Part shown: one piece after another, positions 33,493-43,539 of the stretch
Layout of the letters: every line of letters starts with the position of its first letter
How positions within the stretch are numbered: the stretch's first letter is position 1
Assembly (NCBI GenBank): GCA_030765605.1
Contig: JAVCCG010000085.1
Coordinates: 62,001-126,000, forward strand
Direction of reading: 5' to 3'
DNA from: Candidatus Alcyoniella australis
Lineage (GTDB): Bacteria > Lernaellota > Lernaellaia > JAVCCG01 > Alcyoniellaceae
Length of the DNA: 64,000 nucleotides
Notes under the pieces: model-generated
What the model saw: the letters and a program-made list of their open reading frames with translations, nothing else
What the model was told of the DNA's origin: nothing
Databases searched by the model: none
Translations under genes and position numbers: made by a program

Positions 33493-33741
33493 CTAATCGA
33501 CCTTTTTCCGCATTCCGTCCACGGAATCCTCGATTACCTCGACCGCATCGTCCGCCAGGTCCTCGGCTCCGTCCGTTGCACGTTCGATAGTCTTTTTTAC
33601 CGGCCGCTCCACGTTATGATGCCAGCCCACGGCCTTGCGCGCCTCGTGGCAGATGTCGGAAAAGATCCCGTCGCCCCCGGCGATCCCGAATATGAACATC
33701 GCCAGGATCCCGAACACGACTCCGATTGAAAATCGCTTCAT
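33493..33741 (-). CDS. small single-pass membrane or exported protein
   Basis: 82 residues. Hydrophobic segment at 6-24, then an amphipathic, charged helix rich in Asp, Glu and Lys (about 40-82). A strong SD (GGGGAGGGG) precedes the ATG, which overlaps the waaA stop as ATGA. It is the last gene of the lipid A operon. No family is recognised; the position suggests an envelope role. Confidence 0.65.
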   Translation of the reverse strand: MKRFSIGVVFGILAMFIFGIAGGDGIFSDICHEARKAVGWHHNVERPVKKTIERATDGAEDLADDAVEVIEDSVDGMRKKVD

Positions 33742-35021
33742 CGCCCCTCCCCGATAATTTCGGGCCAGCGTCGGGCGAGCACCGACAGGGTTCGGTCAAC
33801 CGCGCCGCTGCCCGAGCGCACCGCCAGTTGTCCAGCTTGGCCCATTGTATCGCGCTTCACGGGATCGGACAGCAGCTCCACGACGACGTCTGCCAGCCCC
33901 TTGCCGTCGCGCACCGTACACAATGCGCCGGCGTGCTGCAGCGTCGAGATCTCGGAAACGAAATTCTGCGTATGCGGGCCCACCAGCACCGCCCTGGCTT
34001 GTGCGGCCGGCTCAAGCACATTGTGTCCGCCGACCCGCGCCAGGCTGCCGCCGACAAAGCACACGTCGGCCAGACCCAGCACCGAGGTCAGTTCGCCCAC
34101 CGTATCGAGCACCAGCACGTCCGCGTTCTGGACGACGCCCGGGGTCGAGCGCAAGTCCACACTGAGCCCCAGAGCCTCGAGATCAGAGCGGCCCTGCGAC
34201 ACGCGCTCGAGGTGCCGCGGGGCAACCAGCAGACGGCACTGAACGCCGGCCTCCCGCGCGGCCAACAACGCCCTGCCGCATGCGGTCTCCTCGCCCTGGT
34301 GAGTACTGGCGCCGATCAGCAGCAGGCCCTCGCCCTTAAAATCGAGCGCAAGTTTGTAGGCCTCGCCTTGCTCGGCTGTGGCGATCGGGCTGTCGAACTT
34401 GGCGTTGCCGCTGATAAACACGCTCGTGGGCTTGGCGCCGATTCTGATCATGCGCGCGGCATGCAGCGTAGTCTGAACCGCCTTAACTTCGATGGCGGCG
34501 AAGATCGAACGCAGCCCCGGCCGCGCCATGCGGTAGCGCGGATAGCTGCGATCCGAGAGCCGGCCCGAGACCAGCGCCAGGGGAATTGCATGATCGCGAT
34601 GGGCCCAGATCATCTCGGGCCACAGTTCGGTCTCGACCAAAATCGTGATTCGTGGTTGCGCCCGGCGCAGCCAGATCTGCACCAGCGGTCGAAAGTCAAA
34701 GGGGAACAGCACGGTAGGAATCTCGTCGCCCCAGCGATCCGTCGCTGCCTGACGCCCCTCGGGTGTGGAGGTGCTGATCAAAAGCGGCCCCAGCCCACGC
34801 GCGCGCAGCGCCTGGATCAGCGGCTCCGCGGCCCGCACCTCGCCCACCGATGCGGCATGTACGTGCAACGGCGCTTTGCAATCGGCGGGCAACGAAATCA
34901 GCCCCAGCCGCTCCAAAGCGCCGCGACGCCAGCGCGGACGCAGCAGCGCACCGACCGCCCAGGTCGGAATCAACACCAGGGCGGCGACGTACCACAGCAG
35001 GTTGTACAGCGCGCGAATCAT
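33738..35021 (-). CDS. waaA: 3-deoxy-D-manno-octulosonic acid (Kdo) transferase
   Basis: 427 residues. It attaches Kdo from CMP-Kdo to lipid A at the cytoplasmic face of the inner membrane. The N-terminal membrane anchor (YNLLWYVAALVLIPTWAVGA), HAASVGEVRAAEPLI (catalytic Glu region), ETELWPEMIWAHRDH and the C-terminal GGSLARVGGHNVLEPAA are typical of the GT30 family. It starts with ATG, GGGAG five bases upstream, and overlaps the preceding glycosyltransferase stop by four bases. Confidence 0.94.
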   Translation of the reverse strand: MIRALYNLLWYVAALVLIPTWAVGALLRPRWRRGALERLGLISLPADCKAPLHVHAASVGEVRAAEPLIQALRARGLGPLLISTSTPEGRQAATDRWGDEIPTVLFPFDFRPLVQIWLRRAQPRITILVETELWPEMIWAHRDHAIPLALVSGRLSDRSYPRYRMARPGLRSIFAAIEVKAVQTTLHAARMIRIGAKPTSVFISGNAKFDSPIATAEQGEAYKLALDFKGEGLLLIGASTHQGEETACGRALLAAREAGVQCRLLVAPRHLERVSQGRSDLEALGLSVDLRSTPGVVQNADVLVLDTVGELTSVLGLADVCFVGGSLARVGGHNVLEPAAQARAVLVGPHTQNFVSEISTLQHAGALCTVRDGKGLADVVVELLSDPVKRDTMGQAGQLAVRSGSGAVDRTLSVLARRWPEIIGEGR

Positions 35022-36739
35022 CTGTTCTCCCGCTTATCCCTCAGCCGCTGTGCCACGTTGCCCAACGGATCGTCAAAGTAATCCTCGAACGATCCCGCCA
35101 CGCCGAACCCCTCGCAGCGCCAAACCTCGGACCGGCCGAAGGTCCGCCCGTCGCGGCTGAACTCAAAATCGGGCAACCTTCGGCAGCAGCTCAGCAGCGG
35201 ACGCAACGCGCTCAGCAGCGGCCGGGCGTGCCGACCCAGGGTCTGCTGCGCGCCCAGGCCCAGCGTGCCGAACCACTGACGCACGTCGCAGCCGCCGCAG
35301 CGCTCGACGTATCCGCGCAACAGCTCGCAACCGCCGAAGTGCTTGCGAAAGCGCGAGGTCAGCTTCATTCCCGGCAAATCAACGATCACGAACGTCCAGC
35401 CCTCAAGCGCATGATAATCCACGCGCAGATCGTAGTCGTTGCCCTTGGTCGAATAATTGGCGCTGAAGGTCTGCGGGCTTCCCGGCAGGTGGTACTCCAG
35501 CTCGCTGGCGATCTGGTAGCAACGCGATCCGGCGATGGTGTGCGCCGGGTCGGGCGCGTCCTGGATCTCGCGCTGCACGCGCTGCGCCAGCTCGGGCCAG
35601 CCGTAGGCCTGGTCGGTTAGGTCCCTGGCGCGCTGCGGCATGCCGATCGCGCTGATAATCCGGGCCACGGGCAAAATCGGACGTAGCGCCTGCACGTGCA
35701 TCACCACGGTCAGCACCGCGGCGATTACCAGCAAGGCCACGCCCAGCCGTGCGATTGCGCGCCGCCCCCCGCGCCAAGCATCGACCGTCCAGCTCACCGC
35801 CAGCAGCACCAACGGTGCGTGGGCCAGGGCCGGCCAGTTGGCCTGAACCTCGGTGCGAAATGCGATCAGCAGGAAGTAGATCAGCATCGGCACGCTGAGC
35901 AACGCCAGCAGCAGCTCGGGCGACTGGGGTCGACGGCGATAATCTTGCATCGCCCGCACCGCGACCACAGCTCCCAAAATTGCCGGTGGCACCAGCACGA
36001 GCTGCGCCAGCAACGTCTCGACGAAATATTGCAACGCCTGGCCCAAATCGGCGTGCGCCCGGTGCCCGATCTTGTCCACCACCAGCACTGTGATCCACTG
36101 ATGCTCGACGTTCCAAACGATCACCGGCGCGAAGCCGATTGCCACGATAGTCGCGGCCAGCCACGGCCAGGGCGTGCGCAGGCTCGCGCGCAGCCTGGGG
36201 ATCGCCAGCACGCACAGGGCGACCATCGCGCAGAGCAAGGTTGCAGTCAGCTTGGAGTACAGCGCGCCCAGCAGCGCCAGGGCCAGCAGCGTGTAGTTCA
36301 ACGCGCCGGGCTTTTTCAGCAGCCGGGCCATGGCGTACAGCGCCAGCAGCCAGAACAGGCTGAGCACGGTGTCGTGGATCATCAGCACCGTGCCCGCGGC
36401 GAACAGCGGCACGAGGTTGAACGCTATCGCGCTAAGCAGCGCCTTGGTCTTATCGGCGAACAGCGTCCGCGCCGTGAGGTAAACCAGGATCGTGCCGCAC
36501 ACGCCCAGCAGCAGAGCCGGAGCGCGTACCGCCAACGGCGAGGTTCCCAGCAGCCGCGCGCTCAGCGCGTTGACCCAGGCCGTCATCCCCGGCTGGTCGA
36601 AGTAGCACAGCGCCAGGCGTTTGCCCCAGGTCCAGTAGTAGGTCTCGTCCGGGATCAGCCCCAGCCGCGAGCAGAACAGCAGCCGCGCAGCAGTAATCAG
36701 CGCGATCGCTCCTGCCAGGGCCAGGGCGTGCCGCCGCAA
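35018..36739 (-). CDS. GT39/ArnT-like membrane glycosyltransferase
   Basis: 573 residues. About ten transmembrane helices in the first 370 residues carry the family's acidic loop (LIPDETYYWTW) and the following FDQPGMTAWVNALS. Enzymes of this group use polyprenyl-phosphate sugars on the periplasmic side; ArnT adds aminoarabinose to lipid A. A 200-residue soluble C-terminal part has several Cys, including a CGGC. The start is TTG 36739, directly after the msbA TAA, with AGGA seven bases upstream. Its place between msbA and waaA suggests lipid A or core decoration, but the donor sugar is unknown. Confidence 0.82.
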   Translation of the reverse strand: MRRHALALAGAIALITAARLLFCSRLGLIPDETYYWTWGKRLALCYFDQPGMTAWVNALSARLLGTSPLAVRAPALLLGVCGTILVYLTARTLFADKTKALLSAIAFNLVPLFAAGTVLMIHDTVLSLFWLLALYAMARLLKKPGALNYTLLALALLGALYSKLTATLLCAMVALCVLAIPRLRASLRTPWPWLAATIVAIGFAPVIVWNVEHQWITVLVVDKIGHRAHADLGQALQYFVETLLAQLVLVPPAILGAVVAVRAMQDYRRRPQSPELLLALLSVPMLIYFLLIAFRTEVQANWPALAHAPLVLLAVSWTVDAWRGGRRAIARLGVALLVIAAVLTVVMHVQALRPILPVARIISAIGMPQRARDLTDQAYGWPELAQRVQREIQDAPDPAHTIAGSRCYQIASELEYHLPGSPQTFSANYSTKGNDYDLRVDYHALEGWTFVIVDLPGMKLTSRFRKHFGGCELLRGYVERCGGCDVRQWFGTLGLGAQQTLGRHARPLLSALRPLLSCCRRLPDFEFSRDGRTFGRSEVWRCEGFGVAGSFEDYFDDPLGNVAQRLRDKRENR

Positions 36740-38593
36740 TTACTTATCCTGGAACTGGATCTGGTAGAGCCGATGGTACTCGCCGTTGCGAGCGATCAGC
36801 TCGTCGTGACGGCCGTCCTCGACGATGCGCCCCTGGGAGAGCACCAGGATGCGGTCGGCCTTGCGCACCGTTGAGAGCCGATGGGCGATGACGAACGTCG
36901 TGCGATTGCACATCAGGTTCTCCAGTGCGGCCTGGACCTCGGCCTCGCTCTCGGCGTCGAGGCTTGAGGTCGCCTCATCGAGAATCAGGATCGGCGCGTC
37001 CTTAAACAGCGCGCGGGCGATCGCCAAGCGCTGTCGCTGTCCGCCGCTAAGCTTAACGCCCAACTCGCCGACTCTCGTTTGGTAGCCCTTGGGAAACCCG
37101 GTGACAAAGCGATGGGCATTGGCCGCCTTTGCCGCGGCCTCGATCTTGCTCGGGTCCGCGTCGCCGTGGCCGTAGGCGATGTTGTTGGCGATCGTATCGT
37201 CGAACAGGAAGGTCTCCTGGGTCACCAGTCCGATGTTGCGTCGCAGGCTGTTCAGACTCAGATCGCGCAGGTCGACCTTGTCGAATAAAATGCGGCCGGA
37301 GGTGACGTCCCAAAAGCGCGGGATCAGGTTGGCCACCGTGGTCTTGCCCGCGCCGGAGCTGCCGACCAGCGCCACGACCTGGCCGTGATGCACATCGAAG
37401 CTAAGGTTGACGAGCACCGGCTCGCTGTCGTAGGCAAAGCTGATGTCGTCGAACGCGATTTGTTCCGGCGCCTTGGTCAATTCGATCGCCCCGGGCTTCT
37501 CGGTGACTGTCGGCTCTTGGTCCAGCGCCTGGAAAATCCGGTCGGCCGCGCCAAGCGCCTGCTGGAAGCTGATATTAAAACGATTGATCTTGCGCAACGG
37601 CTCGTACATCAACCCCAGGGCCGCGAGGAAGCTGAAGAACTGTCCGGGCGTACTCTGGCCGGTTATCACCTGCATCCCGCCGAAGATGATCACGCTGGCC
37701 GCGGCCAGCGCCCCCATCACCTCGATCACCGGGCTGCTCAGCTCCGAGAACAAAATCTGTCTGACGTTGGCCTTGTAGACCCGTTCATTCTCGTTGACGA
37801 AACGATCGATCTCGTAACGCTCCATACCAAAGGCCTTGATCACGCGGATCCCGGCGAAGTTCTCCTTGAGGATCGACGAGAGCCGTCCCAAGCGTTCCTG
37901 TCCGCGCTTGGTGTACTTGCGCACTTTGCGGCCGAAGCGGACCAGCGGGAACGCGGTCAGCGGGAAGACGACCAGGATAATCAGGCTCAGCCAGAAGTTC
38001 TGGTAAAAGGCGACCATCGCCAGAGCCGCCATGGTCAGCGGTTCGCGGAACAGGTGGACCAGGCTGGGCATGGCGTTTTGCACCATCTGCACATCGTTGG
38101 TCACACGGCTCATCATGTTGCCGGTGTTCTGATCGCTGAAGAAGCCCACCGACATGTCCTGGTAGTGGGTGTACAGCTCCTCGCGCATCGACATCACGAC
38201 GCGCTGTCCCGCCCGCCGCAGCAGCATTCCCTGACAGAAGCGGAACAGGCCCTTGAGCAGGTACAGCCCCACTACCATCCCCGAAAGCAGGTAGAGCATC
38301 CCTCCACGGTCAGCCACCGGGACCGAGAAGAAAGTGTAGCCCTCGTCGGTCTTGCGGATCGGATCGAAGCGCATTTTGTCCACCGGCGAGGAGGGAATCG
38401 TCGGAGCTTTAATCGCAGTAGCGAGCGCCGATGCGTCTTCGTCCCCGGGCAGGAAGATGCCGTTGAGGATCGGATCGACCAGGTAGGCCGTGGCGCCGGT
38501 GATGGCCGAGATGGAAATGGCACAGACTATCGCCAGCAGCAGCGACACCCAGTAGCGCTTGAAGCGCTCGAACAACTTTGCCCAACCCCCCAT
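36740..38593 (-). CDS. msbA: lipid A exporter ABC transporter MsbA
   Basis: 617 residues, an ABC exporter half-transporter: six-helix membrane domain (1-340) then an ATPase with Walker A GSSGAGKTT, signature LSGGQRQRLAIARAL, Walker B ILILDEATSSLDAE and the switch His (VIAHRLST). It flips lipid A-core across the inner membrane. The loop between helices 1 and 2 is about 50 residues, longer than in typical MsbA. One base separates it from the LpxB stop, and AGGAG precedes the ATG. Its position supports a lipid A substrate over other exporters. Confidence 0.93.
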   Translation of the reverse strand: MGGWAKLFERFKRYWVSLLLAIVCAISISAITGATAYLVDPILNGIFLPGDEDASALATAIKAPTIPSSPVDKMRFDPIRKTDEGYTFFSVPVADRGGMLYLLSGMVVGLYLLKGLFRFCQGMLLRRAGQRVVMSMREELYTHYQDMSVGFFSDQNTGNMMSRVTNDVQMVQNAMPSLVHLFREPLTMAALAMVAFYQNFWLSLIILVVFPLTAFPLVRFGRKVRKYTKRGQERLGRLSSILKENFAGIRVIKAFGMERYEIDRFVNENERVYKANVRQILFSELSSPVIEVMGALAAASVIIFGGMQVITGQSTPGQFFSFLAALGLMYEPLRKINRFNISFQQALGAADRIFQALDQEPTVTEKPGAIELTKAPEQIAFDDISFAYDSEPVLVNLSFDVHHGQVVALVGSSGAGKTTVANLIPRFWDVTSGRILFDKVDLRDLSLNSLRRNIGLVTQETFLFDDTIANNIAYGHGDADPSKIEAAAKAANAHRFVTGFPKGYQTRVGELGVKLSGGQRQRLAIARALFKDAPILILDEATSSLDAESEAEVQAALENLMCNRTTFVIAHRLSTVRKADRILVLSQGRIVEDGRHDELIARNGEYHRLYQIQFQDK

Positions 38594-38594
38594 C

Positions 38595-40421
38595 TCAGCT
38601 CCTGTTCATCATCTCTCGGGCAATCGCGGCCACGCGCCCGATCACGTCTCCCCCGAGTAGCGACTCGCGTAAGGTTAGAAGCTCTTGGCGTGTTTGACCA
38701 GCCAACCGCGGGTCTTCGAGAAACCGCCGGGCCTCGGCTGCCAGCCGCTCGCCGGTGACCTCGGACTGAATCAGTTCCACCACCAAGTCGCGGCGGGCCA
38801 CGATGTTGGGCAGTCCGACGCGGTCGATGCTCACCAGCATCTTCGCCAGCGAGTAGTTGATCCAGTTGCCCATGTAGGCGATCACCATCGGCAGGCCGCA
38901 CAGGGCGGCCTCGAGGGTCACCGTGCCGCTGGTCACCAGGCCCACGTCGGCCGCGGCCATCAGCTCGTAGACCTCGCCCGTGATCACGCGGGCCTCGACC
39001 TGCGAACGCTCCAGCTCGGCCTCGATCCGCCCCGGCGCGACGCCCGGCGCCCGCGAGACCGCGAACTGCAAATCGTCGAAATCTTTCGCCAGCTCGACAG
39101 CGGCGTCGAGCATCGGCGGCAATAACAGATTGATCTCGCTACCGCGGCTTCCCGGGATGATCGCCGCCAGGCGCTTTTGCGGATCGAACCCGTGCTTGTT
39201 CAGGAACTCCTCGCGCCCCAGCTTGGGCCTGGCCCGCTGGACCAGCGGGTGTCCGACGAAGTCCACCTGTGCGCCGCGGTCGCTGTACAGCTCGGCCTCG
39301 AACGGGAAGATCACCGCCAGCCGGTCGATGCGCTTGGCAACCTTGCGCGCCCGGCCTTTACGCCAGGCCCAAACCTGCGGCGGGATGAAGTACAGCACGC
39401 GAATGCCCAGCCGTCGCGCGTGGCGCGCCAGCATCAGGTTGAAATCGGGCAGATCGATCAACAGCAGCAGATCGGGCCGCTGCTGATCGAGCAGGCGCAT
39501 CAACTTAAGTAGTGCGCGCCTGATCCGACCCGCGCCGCCGAGCACCTGGGTGAAGCCCACGATGCTCAGGTCCGAGGCGTCCACCAGCTGCTCCATCCCG
39601 GCCCGCACCAGGTTCTCGCCGCCCATGCCCGCAGCCTTAAGTTGCGGTTCATCCTGCTGCAGCCGCTGGATCAGTTGCGCAGCGTAGACATCGGCGCTGG
39701 CCTCGCCCACCGAGACCGCGAGCAACGGACCGGGACGCTGGGGCGCTTTGCCCAGCCACAGCGGCCGCGTGAGCTCGAGCATGCCGCGGGCGATTAAAAC
39801 CGCGAGCAGTCCGCCGACAATCACGTCGCTGGGATAGTGCGCTCCGAGGTAGACCCGGGCCGTCCCCGCACCCAGACCCAACAGCAGGTAGGCAATCGGC
39901 CGTCGCCGGTAGATGAACCACAGGCAGAACAGCAGGCTCCAGGCCGTTGCAGTATGGCCGCTGGGCATGCTCGAATGGCGACCCAATCCCGCGCCGAAAC
40001 GGTAGAGCGCCGGACCGGCCAGTTCCGAGTACTGCGGCGCGTGCAGCGCAATCCACTGTGGATCGAGCTTGTAGACCTTCTTATCCCAAGGGATCCAATC
40101 GGCCAACACCGGCTCGTCGTGCCCGATGGGCGTGTTGAGCTGCTGCTTGAACTCCACGATCGGACGGGCGCGTCCGGCCAGCGGCTTGGCCAGATTGATC
40201 GTCAGGCCCGCGATTGCCACGCACAACGCCACGGCGAGCACACGGCGTCTGCCGTGGGCCGGGTCGTAGAGCAGAATCAGCGGAATGACCAACACCGCGG
40301 CGCACCAGCCGTTGCCCACCAAGTTCAGCAGGCCGAACAACAGATCTAGAAGCTCGTTGGAACAACGGCTGTTGAGCAGCAGAAACAGCTGCTGATCCCA
40401 TTGTAAAACATGCGAGATCAC
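38595..40421 (-). CDS. lpxB: PAP2 phosphatase-LpxB (lipid-A-disaccharide synthase) fusion
   Basis: 608 residues from GTG 40421. GGGGAG lies seven bases upstream, and the promoter at 40465-40493 excludes the longer frame. Residues 1-225 are a membrane PAP2 phosphatase with all three motifs: KPLAGRARP (about 75), PSGHTA (about 150), and ARVYLGAHYPSD (about 190). Residues about 232-608 are a full-length LpxB (VSVGEASAD; FIPPQVWAWRKGR; VDFVGHPL; IIPGSRGSEI; TSGTVTLEAAL), which joins UDP-diacylglucosamine to lipid X. Seen: one continuous frame. Inferred: the PAP2 part dephosphorylates lipid A (LpxE-like) or an undecaprenyl phosphate. Leads the operon. Confidence 0.9.
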   Translation of the reverse strand: MISHVLQWDQQLFLLLNSRCSNELLDLLFGLLNLVGNGWCAAVLVIPLILLYDPAHGRRRVLAVALCVAIAGLTINLAKPLAGRARPIVEFKQQLNTPIGHDEPVLADWIPWDKKVYKLDPQWIALHAPQYSELAGPALYRFGAGLGRHSSMPSGHTATAWSLLFCLWFIYRRRPIAYLLLGLGAGTARVYLGAHYPSDVIVGGLLAVLIARGMLELTRPLWLGKAPQRPGPLLAVSVGEASADVYAAQLIQRLQQDEPQLKAAGMGGENLVRAGMEQLVDASDLSIVGFTQVLGGAGRIRRALLKLMRLLDQQRPDLLLLIDLPDFNLMLARHARRLGIRVLYFIPPQVWAWRKGRARKVAKRIDRLAVIFPFEAELYSDRGAQVDFVGHPLVQRARPKLGREEFLNKHGFDPQKRLAAIIPGSRGSEINLLLPPMLDAAVELAKDFDDLQFAVSRAPGVAPGRIEAELERSQVEARVITGEVYELMAAADVGLVTSGTVTLEAALCGLPMVIAYMGNWINYSLAKMLVSIDRVGLPNIVARRDLVVELIQSEVTGERLAAEARRFLEDPRLAGQTRQELLTLRESLLGGDVIGRVAAIAREMMNRS

Positions 40422-40464
40422 CCGCGAACTCCCCTTTGTCGGCGCTATTGGATCGGCCGCGCAT

Positions 40465-40493
40465 ATTATATGTGGGGGTTGGCGATAAACCAA
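40465..40493 (-). promoter_or_regulatory. promoter of the lipid A operon
   Basis: On the minus strand: TTGGTT (40493-40488), a 17-base spacer and a perfect TATAAT (40470-40465). RNA would start near 40458, about 37 bases before the GTG. Confidence 0.6.
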
Positions 40494-40536: not shown

Positions 40537-40565
40537 TTGACACTTATCAGGCTGCCCGATAAGAT
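40537..40565 (+). promoter_or_regulatory. promoter of the small exported protein gene
   Basis: Perfect TTGACA (40537-40542), a 17-base spacer and TAAGAT (40560-40565). Transcription starts about 35 bases before the ATG at 40606. Confidence 0.6.
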
Positions 40566-40605: not shown

Positions 40606-41022
40606 ATGCGGCGTACCGCACAGATACTCGCAATTGGATTGTTGATCGCTCTGCCGCTGGCTGTCATGGCTCAGGACCTGACCTTCGGCGAGACCGACGG
40701 AGAGGCGCTGATCGCTTCCACGCTCAAGAGTCTAGGCGCAGAGACCGACGTCGATTTCAAAATCGTAGACGGCAAATACGACATCTATTGTGCCTGGAAA
40801 TCCGGCACGGTCACCGACGAATACGAGTTCCTCGGGATGTGCATCGGGGCGAGCGCCGAGCTGAGCAAATCCCTGGACAAGCCGTGCTACAAGGTCATCG
40901 TCACCACCCAGACCGGCGCCAAGTGGGAGATCGAGATCCAATACGCCGTTCAGGCCCTGTTGATCGAAGACAACGAGCAGAGTGGGATGTTCCTGCTCGA
41001 GCATCTGCAAAAGATCCAATAG
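40606..41022 (+). CDS. small exported protein of unknown function
   Basis: 138 residues from ATG 40606, AAGGAG upstream. A signal peptide (1-23, ending VMAQ) precedes a compact 115-residue domain of alternating strands and helices with three Cys (YCAWKSG, GMCIGAS, PCYKVIV). The pattern resembles small periplasmic sensor or YbjN-like folds, but no family can be named. It has its own promoter and terminator, so it is a single-gene unit. Confidence 0.75.
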   Translation: MRRTAQILAIGLLIALPLAVMAQDLTFGETDGEALIASTLKSLGAETDVDFKIVDGKYDIYCAWKSGTVTDEYEFLGMCIGASAELSKSLDKPCYKVIVTTQTGAKWEIEIQYAVQALLIEDNEQSGMFLLEHLQKIQ

Positions 41023-41249: not shown

Positions 41250-41278
41250 TATATAGCCCGAGAGTTCGAGCTTTTCAA
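41250..41278 (-). promoter_or_regulatory. promoter of tRNA-Val
   Basis: On the minus strand: TTGAAA (41278-41273), a 17-base spacer and TATATA (41255-41250), 20 bases upstream of the tRNA. The -35 overlaps the end of the preceding coding gene. Confidence 0.6.
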
Positions 41279-43539
41279 GTGGTTCTGCGCAGAATTAGTG
41301 TGTACAGCGCCAGCAGGGTTACCGGTAGCTTGAACAACCACAGGCTCCAGGCGGCGCCCGCGAATCCGGCCAGCGGGATCAGAATCAGCGCGCCGAGCAA
41401 CCCTCCGATACATGCGCCGAGGTGATCGGCTCCCTCAAGCAGCGACGCGGACTTGCGCAGATCGTCCTGTGCCAGCAGCAGCGTCCCTGCCGGATAGCAC
41501 AGCCCTGTTGCCGCGCCAGCCAGCGCCATCAGGCCGAACCACCAGGCGCGGCTCAGCCCGATGGCCGCTCCCAATACGTCGGTCGCCGCCAGTCCGGCCA
41601 GCGCAATCGCGGCCCAGACTGCCAGCTCCCCGAGCAGCAGGGGCGCTGTGTTGCCCGTGCGCAATCCGCGCGTCAGCCTTCGTCCGATGAAGCTGCCCGC
41701 AGCCAGGCCCGCCATGAACATCGCGGTAAACAGGCCGATCTGTTGGTAGAGGCTGCCGAAGCGGTTCTGGAACGCACTGATCAGCATCACGTAAAGCGCC
41801 ATGCCCGCCAAGCCGGTGCTGCCGATCGACAGGCTGGTCAGCCCCACGCGCAATTTGCGTGGACCGCGGATCAGCACCAGCAGCGCGGCCGCTGCGCTGA
41901 GCAGCGCCAGCGGAAAGGCGAAGGTCGGCCACCGGGCCCGCGAGAGTTTGCGCAGCAGCGGGGCCAACGATCCTCCGGCGTACTGGTCCCAGAGGATCAG
42001 GCTTAAATAGGGGGCAATCGGCCGCTCGTCGGTGTTCGGCCGATCCGGCGCCAGCCGCTCCAGCGCACTGCGATGCTGCGCAATGCGGCCGGCGGGAAAC
42101 AGCTCGCCGAACATTACGGGATCAAAGAACGGATCGTTCACGCCGCTTTGTTCGTAGCGCCGCGCCAGCTCTTGCGGATCGTCGGTGGCGGACGATCCGT
42201 TGGTGGCGTAAAACGTCGTGCGCTCCTCCGGCGAGATCAGCACGCGCGCGAACGAGCGTTGCAATGCCCGGAACACCGCGCCCTGGTAGGCGCCCATGTC
42301 GCCGCTGAGATAATTCTCCCCGGACTGCACGCCGATCACCAGCACGCCGTCATCGGCAAGGGTCCGCGCCGCCTGGTCGAAAAACTCCACGGTGGCGAAG
42401 CGGTTGAGCATGATTGTCGTGGGATCGGGCAGCGCCGAGAAAATCAGGTCGTAGCGCGGGCTGCCATTACGTAGAAAGGCCCGCGCGTCGCCGACCAAAA
42501 TCCGTGCGCCGGCAAGCGCGGGCTGCGGATGCTCGAACTCACGGATCAATTCGCCGGCTACCGGATCGAGCTGCAGCACATCGACTTGCGCCCCGTACAT
42601 TTGCGCGCGCTCTATGTGCTCGGCCGTGGCGCAGCCCAGCAGCAGCACATGGCGCGGATGCTCGACCTGGCACAGCGCCGGATGGATCGCCCGCGCAGCC
42701 GGGTAAGGATCGGGGAACGTCGCCAACAGCGTGCCCGAGCCGAACAGGTCGTACTGGCCCGCTGCGTGCGCCAGCACCAGATGTTGGTAGGGCGATTGCT
42801 CGACGCGCAACGGCTTGGCGGAAGGAACCATCGAGCGAAAGCGTGCTGTCGCGCTGATTCGATCGAGCCGCGCGCCGAATCCCGCCGCGATACAGATGAT
42901 CGCAACGCTTGAAAAGGCCAGCCGCAGGCCGATCGCGATCCGGCCGCGGGCCGGCGGTACGCCCGCCAGGCAGGCCAGGGCAAACAGACCGAGGTGAACG
43001 CTGAACGGATCCACGCGGCCGATCAGCCATAGGCTGAGCAACGCTCCCGCCGCCAGGCTTCCCAAGGCCTCGATACCGAACGCGCGGCTGACCGGGTCTG
43101 ACGGCGCGTTGCTTGATCCGCTCCACAGGTCCGCCAGATACACGAAGGCCAGGCCGACCACGGCGCCGGGCGGCACGAGCACCAGCAACGTGCCCAAGGC
43201 CAGCGCTGCGGCCGAGGCGTACTGCCCAGGGGCCACACCCAGCAGGGGTCGCAGCATGCGCGCCACGACCACGGCCGACGCCGAGACCAGCGGCAGCGCC
43301 GCGACTAAAACCGAGGCGTCAAGCCGCACCCGGCGCGCCGCTGTTGCGGCCAGGCCGATGCCGAGAAACCAGGCTGCGAACGACAGCCCGATCGACAGCT
43401 CGTTGCCCACGAAGGCCACCACAACCTCGCGCACAAGGATCGTCTGCGAGGTTGTGGCGGCAATCCCGAGCATCAGGATCAGCCACAGGTCGGCTCGTGG
43501 ACGCCCCGCTACTGCGCAGCGTTGCAAACGATCATCCAT
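41275..43539 (-). CDS. membrane-embedded spermidine synthase-like protein
   Basis: 754 residues. Multiple transmembrane helices at the N-terminus (about 15-220) and C-terminus (about 550-750) surround a Rossmann methyltransferase/aminopropyltransferase fold (about 250-510): HVLLLGCATAEHIERA (nucleotide loop), VDVLQLDPVAGELI (acidic residue), GARILVGDARAFLR, RYDLIFSALPDPTT. This is the fused MFS/spermidine synthase type common in deltaproteobacteria. The usual GGG-DG signature is changed to LLGCATAE, so polyamine synthesis is doubtful; the substrate may be another membrane-associated metabolite. No SpeD is nearby. Confidence 0.8.
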   Translation of the reverse strand: MDDRLQRCAVAGRPRADLWLILMLGIAATTSQTILVREVVVAFVGNELSIGLSFAAWFLGIGLAATAARRVRLDASVLVAALPLVSASAVVVARMLRPLLGVAPGQYASAAALALGTLLVLVPPGAVVGLAFVYLADLWSGSSNAPSDPVSRAFGIEALGSLAAGALLSLWLIGRVDPFSVHLGLFALACLAGVPPARGRIAIGLRLAFSSVAIICIAAGFGARLDRISATARFRSMVPSAKPLRVEQSPYQHLVLAHAAGQYDLFGSGTLLATFPDPYPAARAIHPALCQVEHPRHVLLLGCATAEHIERAQMYGAQVDVLQLDPVAGELIREFEHPQPALAGARILVGDARAFLRNGSPRYDLIFSALPDPTTIMLNRFATVEFFDQAARTLADDGVLVIGVQSGENYLSGDMGAYQGAVFRALQRSFARVLISPEERTTFYATNGSSATDDPQELARRYEQSGVNDPFFDPVMFGELFPAGRIAQHRSALERLAPDRPNTDERPIAPYLSLILWDQYAGGSLAPLLRKLSRARWPTFAFPLALLSAAAALLVLIRGPRKLRVGLTSLSIGSTGLAGMALYVMLISAFQNRFGSLYQQIGLFTAMFMAGLAAGSFIGRRLTRGLRTGNTAPLLLGELAVWAAIALAGLAATDVLGAAIGLSRAWWFGLMALAGAATGLCYPAGTLLLAQDDLRKSASLLEGADHLGACIGGLLGALILIPLAGFAGAAWSLWLFKLPVTLLALYTLILRRTT

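Follow-up and report, generated by a model that had tools for sequence, protein, structure and literature searches.

A membrane phosphatase domain of the PAP2 family is joined to the lipid A disaccharide synthase LpxB in all seven genomes of a bacterial class and probably acts on lipid A

The phosphates of lipid A set the charge of the outer membrane, its sensitivity to cationic antibiotics and its recognition by the immune system, and where well-studied bacteria remove them, they do so in a separate and optional modification step. The disaccharide itself is made by LpxB, which in E. coli is a peripheral protein of glycosyltransferase family GT19 (PDB 5w8n, 5w8s and 5w8x) with active-site residues E15, S17, D98, P198-R201, T277, E281 and N316 (PMC5785501). 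LpxE of A. aeolicus, a PAP2 phosphatase, takes off the lipid A 1-phosphate and also cleaves C55-PP and PGP; its N-terminal amphipathic helix lies along the periplasmic surface, and besides a half-crossing helix it has five transmembrane (TM) helices, with the active site at the periplasmic face (PMC6581854). Sugars stand in place of the phosphates in the lipid A of Aquifex (PMC6581854) and, according to a passage in PMC5517470 that cites Schwudke 2003, in that of Bdellovibrio. Oligotropha has lipid A with GalA, and its homologues of lpxE, rgtF and rgtE bear consecutive locus numbers (PMC7663294).

The window examined here, 64,000 nucleotides of a contig from Candidatus Alcyoniella australis (class Lernaellaia), contains at 38595..40421 on the minus strand a fusion gene for a protein of 608 amino acids, with a GTG start at 40421 and a stop codon ending at 38595. 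A sequence-only reading of this DNA had described one uninterrupted frame encoding both a PAP2 phosphatase and LpxB. Our searches confirm that the frame is one protein in which residues 1-217 are an intact PAP2 membrane phosphatase and residues 233-608 an intact LpxB, with matches to Pfam and to TIGR00215 and with the same join in every genome of the class. The fusion is the only LpxB copy in its genome; the second match in the genome search lies on another contig and is a PAP2 protein standing alone. The start had been held to be fixed by a promoter and a Shine-Dalgarno sequence of the gene's own, and of these the Shine-Dalgarno-like sequence stands: GGGGAG at 40429..40434 (minus strand), read directly from the sequence, lies 7 nt upstream of the GTG, and the homologues in an alignment of the fusions begin at the same place, so the GTG start fits. 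A candidate promoter at 40465..40493 (minus strand) combines a perfect -10 element, TATAAT at 40465-40470, with a poor -35 element, TTGGTT at 40488-40493, across a 17-nt spacer. It is visible by eye but absent from the output of a consensus promoter scan, and a separate promoter for the fusion gene is therefore plausible rather than established.

The LpxB half (residues 233-608; 38598..39725, minus strand) is matched by Pfam family PF02684 over residues 235-571 with an E-value of 2.1e-90, and scores 271.5 bits against TIGR00215, the lpxB equivalog model, whose cut-off is 190.25. The whole domain aligns to E. coli LpxB (5w8n) with 283 bits. In an alignment of six fusions out of the seven class genomes, the residues E240, S242, D323, P423-R426, T500, E504 and N539, equivalents of the described active-site residues of the E. 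coli enzyme, are invariant, and the earlier description of this half as complete is thereby upheld. The half is expected to make the lipid A disaccharide, because the genome has no other LpxB and retains both LpxK and KdtA. It differs from the peripheral E. coli protein in carrying an N-terminal five-helix PAP2 phosphatase.

That PAP2 half (residues 2-217; 39771..40418, minus strand) matches Pfam family PF01569 over residues 61-215 with an E-value of 1.5e-22. All three motifs claimed for it are present. The tripartite signature of the family (K-x6-RP, PSGH, SR-x5-H-x3-D) appears as C1, K79-x6-R86-P87 (KPLAGRARP; 40161..40187), C2, PSGH at residues 153-156 (39954..39965), and C3, R189-x5-H195-x3-D199 (39825..39857), all on the minus strand, although the third motif in the window starts ARxxxxxH instead of SRxxxxxH. 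Nine residues, K79, R86, P87, S154, G155, H156, R189, H195 and D199, are the same in all six aligned fusions, while P153 gives way to Gly in one of the six. A search of solved structures placed A. aeolicus LpxE (6ebu) at the top with 89.6 bits, compared with 50.1 for PgpB and 41 for YodM; in a Foldseek search against the PDB, the first 50 matches were LpxB and other GT-B folds, with nothing on the PAP2 half. The NCBIfam models for LpxE (PRK09597) and LpxF gave no match at an E-value of 0.01, and the weak NCBIfam matches, to YbjG, PgpB and SepP, all fell far below cut-off. Because the curated LpxE and LpxF models are unmatched, we file the half, by sequence, as LpxE-like only and not as a member of the LpxE family. 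It shares with A. aeolicus LpxE the PAP2 fold, the motifs and a helix layout with a periplasmic active site, the last being predicted for the fusion. It differs in being joined to LpxB, in having about 50 more residues between C1 and C2, and in keeping the His of PSGH where A. aeolicus LpxE has Asp.

An AlphaFold2 model of the fusion, with a mean pLDDT of 80, has an amphipathic helix at residues 2-17, a short half-helix at 23-35 and TM helices at 38-52, 57-82, 155-171, 175-191 and 197-217, after which come the Rossmann domains of LpxB. The layout of the PAP2 half matches that of A. aeolicus LpxE. The pTM of the whole model is 0.60, a moderate value that makes the mutual placement of the two halves unreliable. 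Arg and Lys are abundant in loops 52-58 and 170-177, which so fit the cytoplasmic side by the positive-inside rule; the 191-198 loop is free of both residues, and the long 83-154 loop, with its mixture of positive and negative charges, is uninformative as to the side of the membrane. On homology to LpxE and the model together, we infer that the LpxB half is cytoplasmic and that the phosphatase faces the periplasm. The proposal of an enzyme with one active site on each side of the membrane gains support from conservation, from homology to an LpxE whose topology is known and from the predicted structure.

The PAP2::LpxB fusion occurs in seven of seven genomes of the class, six of which have full-length, intact frames. 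The seventh gene, in genome G005, has frameshifts further into LpxB, with the PAP2 domain and the start of LpxB in one open frame. The fusions of the class are 35-40% identical, or 35-38% over the aligned full length, and their PAP2 halves alone 25-31%. A profile of the fusion found matches at 1e-40 in 304 of 386 genomes; among the matches listed outside the class, none reaches the PAP2 half, all beginning at profile position 191 or later, and a profile of the PAP2 half at 1e-24 matched the seven class members alone. PAP2 is not joined to LpxB at any of 80 named LpxB loci from the collection, and two further phylum surveys, of 3 and 4 genomes only, added nothing, all of these figures coming from samples of genomes and not from a census. 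A PAP2 profile search in 395 genomes of another phylum returned mostly free-standing proteins of about 185-330 amino acids, together with two frames of 750-777 amino acids in which the partner of PAP2 is PMT_2, not LpxB. We inspected long LpxB frames in loci of Rokubacteria, Tectomicrobia, Acidobacteria and Myxococcota (508-768 amino acids) and in the locus of G029 (873 amino acids), and none matched the PAP2 half; the extensions displayed read as chance GC-rich open frame, except in L080. There, in Atribacteria, L080:4302-6221 is a real LpxI::LpxB fusion, which brings together the enzymes of two successive steps of the lipid A pathway, both cytoplasmic. Both this protein and the long form of LpxB modeled by PRK01021 resemble our fusion in being N-terminally extended, but the partner in L080 is LpxI, the preceding cytoplasmic enzyme, and that in PRK01021 is another N-terminal extension; neither is a phosphatase. 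The sequence-only reading knew of no description of the PAP2::LpxB protein, and in the open-access literature we likewise found no paper describing LpxB, or WaaA, fused with PAP2, subscription journals and domain-architecture databases being outside the scope of that search. Both halves belong to known families, and what is new here is the architecture and the coupling it likely brings.

Downstream of the fusion, on the same strand and closely spaced, lie three further genes. The start of the first, encoding a 617-residue MsbA lipid A flippase (36740..38593, minus strand), adjoins the stop of the fusion; besides its Pfam matches, its score of 571 bits against TIGR02203 is just under the cut-off of 602. 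The second (35018..36739, minus strand) encodes a 573-residue glycosyltransferase of the PMT_2, polyprenyl-phosphate-sugar type (PF13231, E-value 2.2e-26). Its likeness to ArnT is weak, at an E-value of 1.5e-7 and 30 bits against a cut-off of 567 for model PRK13279, and a sequence search of the PDB gave no match to it. The third (33738..35021, minus strand) encodes a Kdo transferase, KdtA/WaaA, of 427 residues (PF04413, E-value 2.1e-46, and PRK05749 models). This order, PAP2::LpxB - MsbA - PMT_2 - KdtA, is repeated in G001-G005, making six genomes in all, and the contig of G006 stops inside MsbA. In other groups the LpxB locus is often LpxB-MsbA-KdtA without PAP2 or PMT_2; compared with that common order, the class has two additions: LpxB carries a PAP2 domain, and a PMT_2 gene separates MsbA from KdtA. 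Oligotropha offers a described parallel, since its LpxE-RgtF-RgtE set likewise ties a PAP2 phosphatase genetically to a polyprenyl-phosphate-sugar glycosyltransferase, but there the proteins are separate, whereas in our case LpxB itself includes the phosphatase, and the transferase gene belongs to the core lipid A operon. Upstream of the operon, G002 encodes BamA, Skp, LpxD, LpxA, a Gfo/Idh/MocA oxidoreductase, LpxI and a 548-residue protein without a Pfam match. In class members a gene for about 550 amino acids lies between LpxI and the fusion, at L107:10888-12531 and at the same place in L110; its product appears by eye to be barrel-like, as in outer membrane proteins, and the L107 product matched no Pfam or NCBIfam model.

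In the other phylum surveyed, that of genome G314, the nearest free-standing relatives of the PAP2 half include genes within lipid A operons. Locus L178 has the order LpxB - LptF/G - GT9 - PMT_2 - PAP2 - GT2 - PMT_2 - PAP2 - MsbA - DUF374 - KdtA, and G314 itself (L188) has LpxB - MsbA - PAP2 - KdtA, with a PAP2 protein that matches the model for the lipid A 4'-phosphatase LpxF at 2e-22. L175 reads LpxB - GT9 - PAP2 - PAP2 - MsbA - PAP2::KdtA; L182 and L183 both read PMT_2 - PAP2 - MsbA - PAP2::KdtA, with LpxB upstream on L182 and the contig of L183 ending before it. PMT_2 is directly followed by PAP2 in L177, L178, L182 and L183. The PAP2::KdtA fusions belong to one family of the phylum and lie in lipid A operons (L175:11433-13562, plus strand; L182:9249-11126, plus strand; L183:1303-3264, minus strand), and the two PAP2::PMT_2 fusions lie at L180:2533-4782 (minus strand) and L181:5444-7774 (plus strand). 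Like the window protein, these have an N-terminal PAP2 domain on a KdtA of a lipid A operon or on a PMT-type glycosyltransferase; they differ in that the partner is KdtA or PMT_2 and not LpxB. PAP2 is thus linked, by fusion or by adjacency, to LpxB, KdtA and PMT_2. The PAP2::PMT_2 proteins possibly combine phosphate removal and sugar transfer in one chain. At L178:3993-9258, a single lipid A operon holds two PMT_2-PAP2 pairs and a GT2 gene resembling polyprenyl-phosphate sugar synthases; one pair could act at the 1-position and the other at the 4'-position.

In a tree of PAP2 domains, a branch with 99/99 support places the LpxB-fused domains on the side of most operonic PAP2 proteins of the other phylum. 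Beyond it lie the PAP2 domains of the KdtA fusions, the solo PAP2 proteins of the class and E. coli LpxT and YbjG. The window domain is itself a long branch, and a single clade of the seven LpxB fusions is not rejected (p 0.2). A single origin of PAP2::LpxB and PAP2::KdtA was also considered, but one clade for both is rejected by the AU test (p 3e-7), and the two kinds of fusion are therefore independent.

We consider it probable that the protein is a bifunctional inner-membrane enzyme of lipid A synthesis, LpxB combined with an LpxE-like PAP2 lipid A phosphatase, with the PMT_2 protein probably adding a sugar. The LpxB half, at the cytoplasmic face, would convert UDP-diacylglucosamine and lipid X to the disaccharide-1-phosphate, the last TM helix of PAP2 running out into the cytoplasm, where LpxB starts. 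MsbA would then flip lipid A, and the periplasm-facing PAP2 domain would remove a phosphate from the flipped molecule, probably the 1-phosphate. The PMT_2 enzyme of the same operon would probably put a sugar from a polyprenyl-phosphate donor on the hydroxyl left behind, which would lower the charge of the lipid A. LpxK is encoded in seven of seven class genomes, so lipid A should carry both phosphates until one is taken off. Lipid A phosphatase appears the most likely role of the PAP2 half because of its fusion partner, its operon, the parallels in the other phylum and this universal LpxK. We prefer the 1-position on two grounds: the closest relative with a solved structure is a 1-phosphatase, and the product of LpxB carries a 1-phosphate; this choice over the 4'-position is the weakest step of the proposal. 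Specificity is poorly readable from sequence among PAP2 proteins, and some activity on C55-PP would be no surprise, since LpxE enzymes are multi-substrate (PMC6581854).

The sequence-only reading had offered two roles, an LpxE-like one and undecaprenyl-phosphate recycling. The former gains from the operon and the parallel fusions; the latter, in which the PAP2 half would mainly be a C55-PP phosphatase recycling the lipid carrier while fused to LPS synthesis, is the main rival, weakened to the point that we think it unlikely. It keeps some life because the free-standing PAP2 proteins near the LpxB-fused domains in the tree include genes beside D-Ala-D-Ala ligase, a hint at the carrier of peptidoglycan synthesis. 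Two of the weak NCBIfam matches, YbjG and SepP, are C55-PP phosphatases, and known LpxE enzymes cleave C55-PP well (PMC6581854). However, BacA, a C55-PP phosphatase, is encoded in seven of seven class genomes and the PGP phosphatase PgpA in six of seven, which rejects the PAP2 half as the cell's sole phosphatase for either substrate. Each genome also has further PAP2 proteins, of which that in G000 looks more YbjG-like. The fused gene, moreover, sits among lpx, msbA and kdtA genes, and one operonic PAP2 of the other phylum is LpxF-like. Against this rival, too, an ArnT-type reaction gives off C55-P and not C55-PP.

Phosphate could also move the other way. LpxT is a PAP2-family enzyme that acts on lipid A at the periplasmic face, and the PAP2 half might similarly transfer phosphate from C55-PP to lipid A; but the fused domains do not group with E. 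coli LpxT, which lies across the 99/99 branch (with the caveat of long branches), and a PMT_2 gene in the operon suits phosphate removal better than addition, so we rate such a phosphotransferase very improbable. Hardly more credible is a PAP2 half that merely anchors LpxB without catalysis, a part that N-terminal extensions may play in some other LpxB proteins. LpxB does work at the membrane surface, the fusion supplies five TM helices, and the 610 positions of NCBIfam LpxB model PRK01021 include an N-terminal extension of about 230 residues; against this, the six aligned fusions keep all PAP2 catalytic residues unchanged, though their PAP2 halves are so divergent. As for an assembly artefact or a chance long frame, the assemblies are in many contigs and one gene is frameshifted, but the same join in seven independent genomes, six of them intact and aligned end to end, refutes an assembly artefact and leaves any such explanation a negligible chance. 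The claim that the fusion is not an artefact of a long frame therefore holds, neither a joining error nor uniformly separate homologues having been found.

If lipid A phosphatase is indeed the role of the PAP2 half, a phosphatase carried class-wide on the essential, always-made LpxB would turn dephosphorylation into a built-in step, and the fusion allows the lipid A that uncultured bacteria make to be predicted in concrete terms. More tentatively, at somewhat short of even chances, the whole class may make a lipid A in which sugar replaces phosphate by means of a two-faced enzyme, the disaccharide being built on one side and dephosphorylated on the other. Repeated, independent joining of PAP2 to LpxB, KdtA and PMT_2 would then suggest that a built-in route to low-charge lipid A is widespread beyond the model bacteria, and the parallel KdtA and PMT_2 fusions offer a way to spot that route elsewhere by sequence.

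Two other genes lie near the start of the fusion in the window. Upstream, on the same strand, 41275-43539 (minus strand) encodes a 754-residue membrane protein with a spermidine-synthase-like domain. Between the two, a divergent gene at 40621-41022 (plus strand) encodes 133 amino acids with a signal-peptide-like start and no family match, and near it the consensus scan found a good sigma-70-like promoter at 40537-40565.
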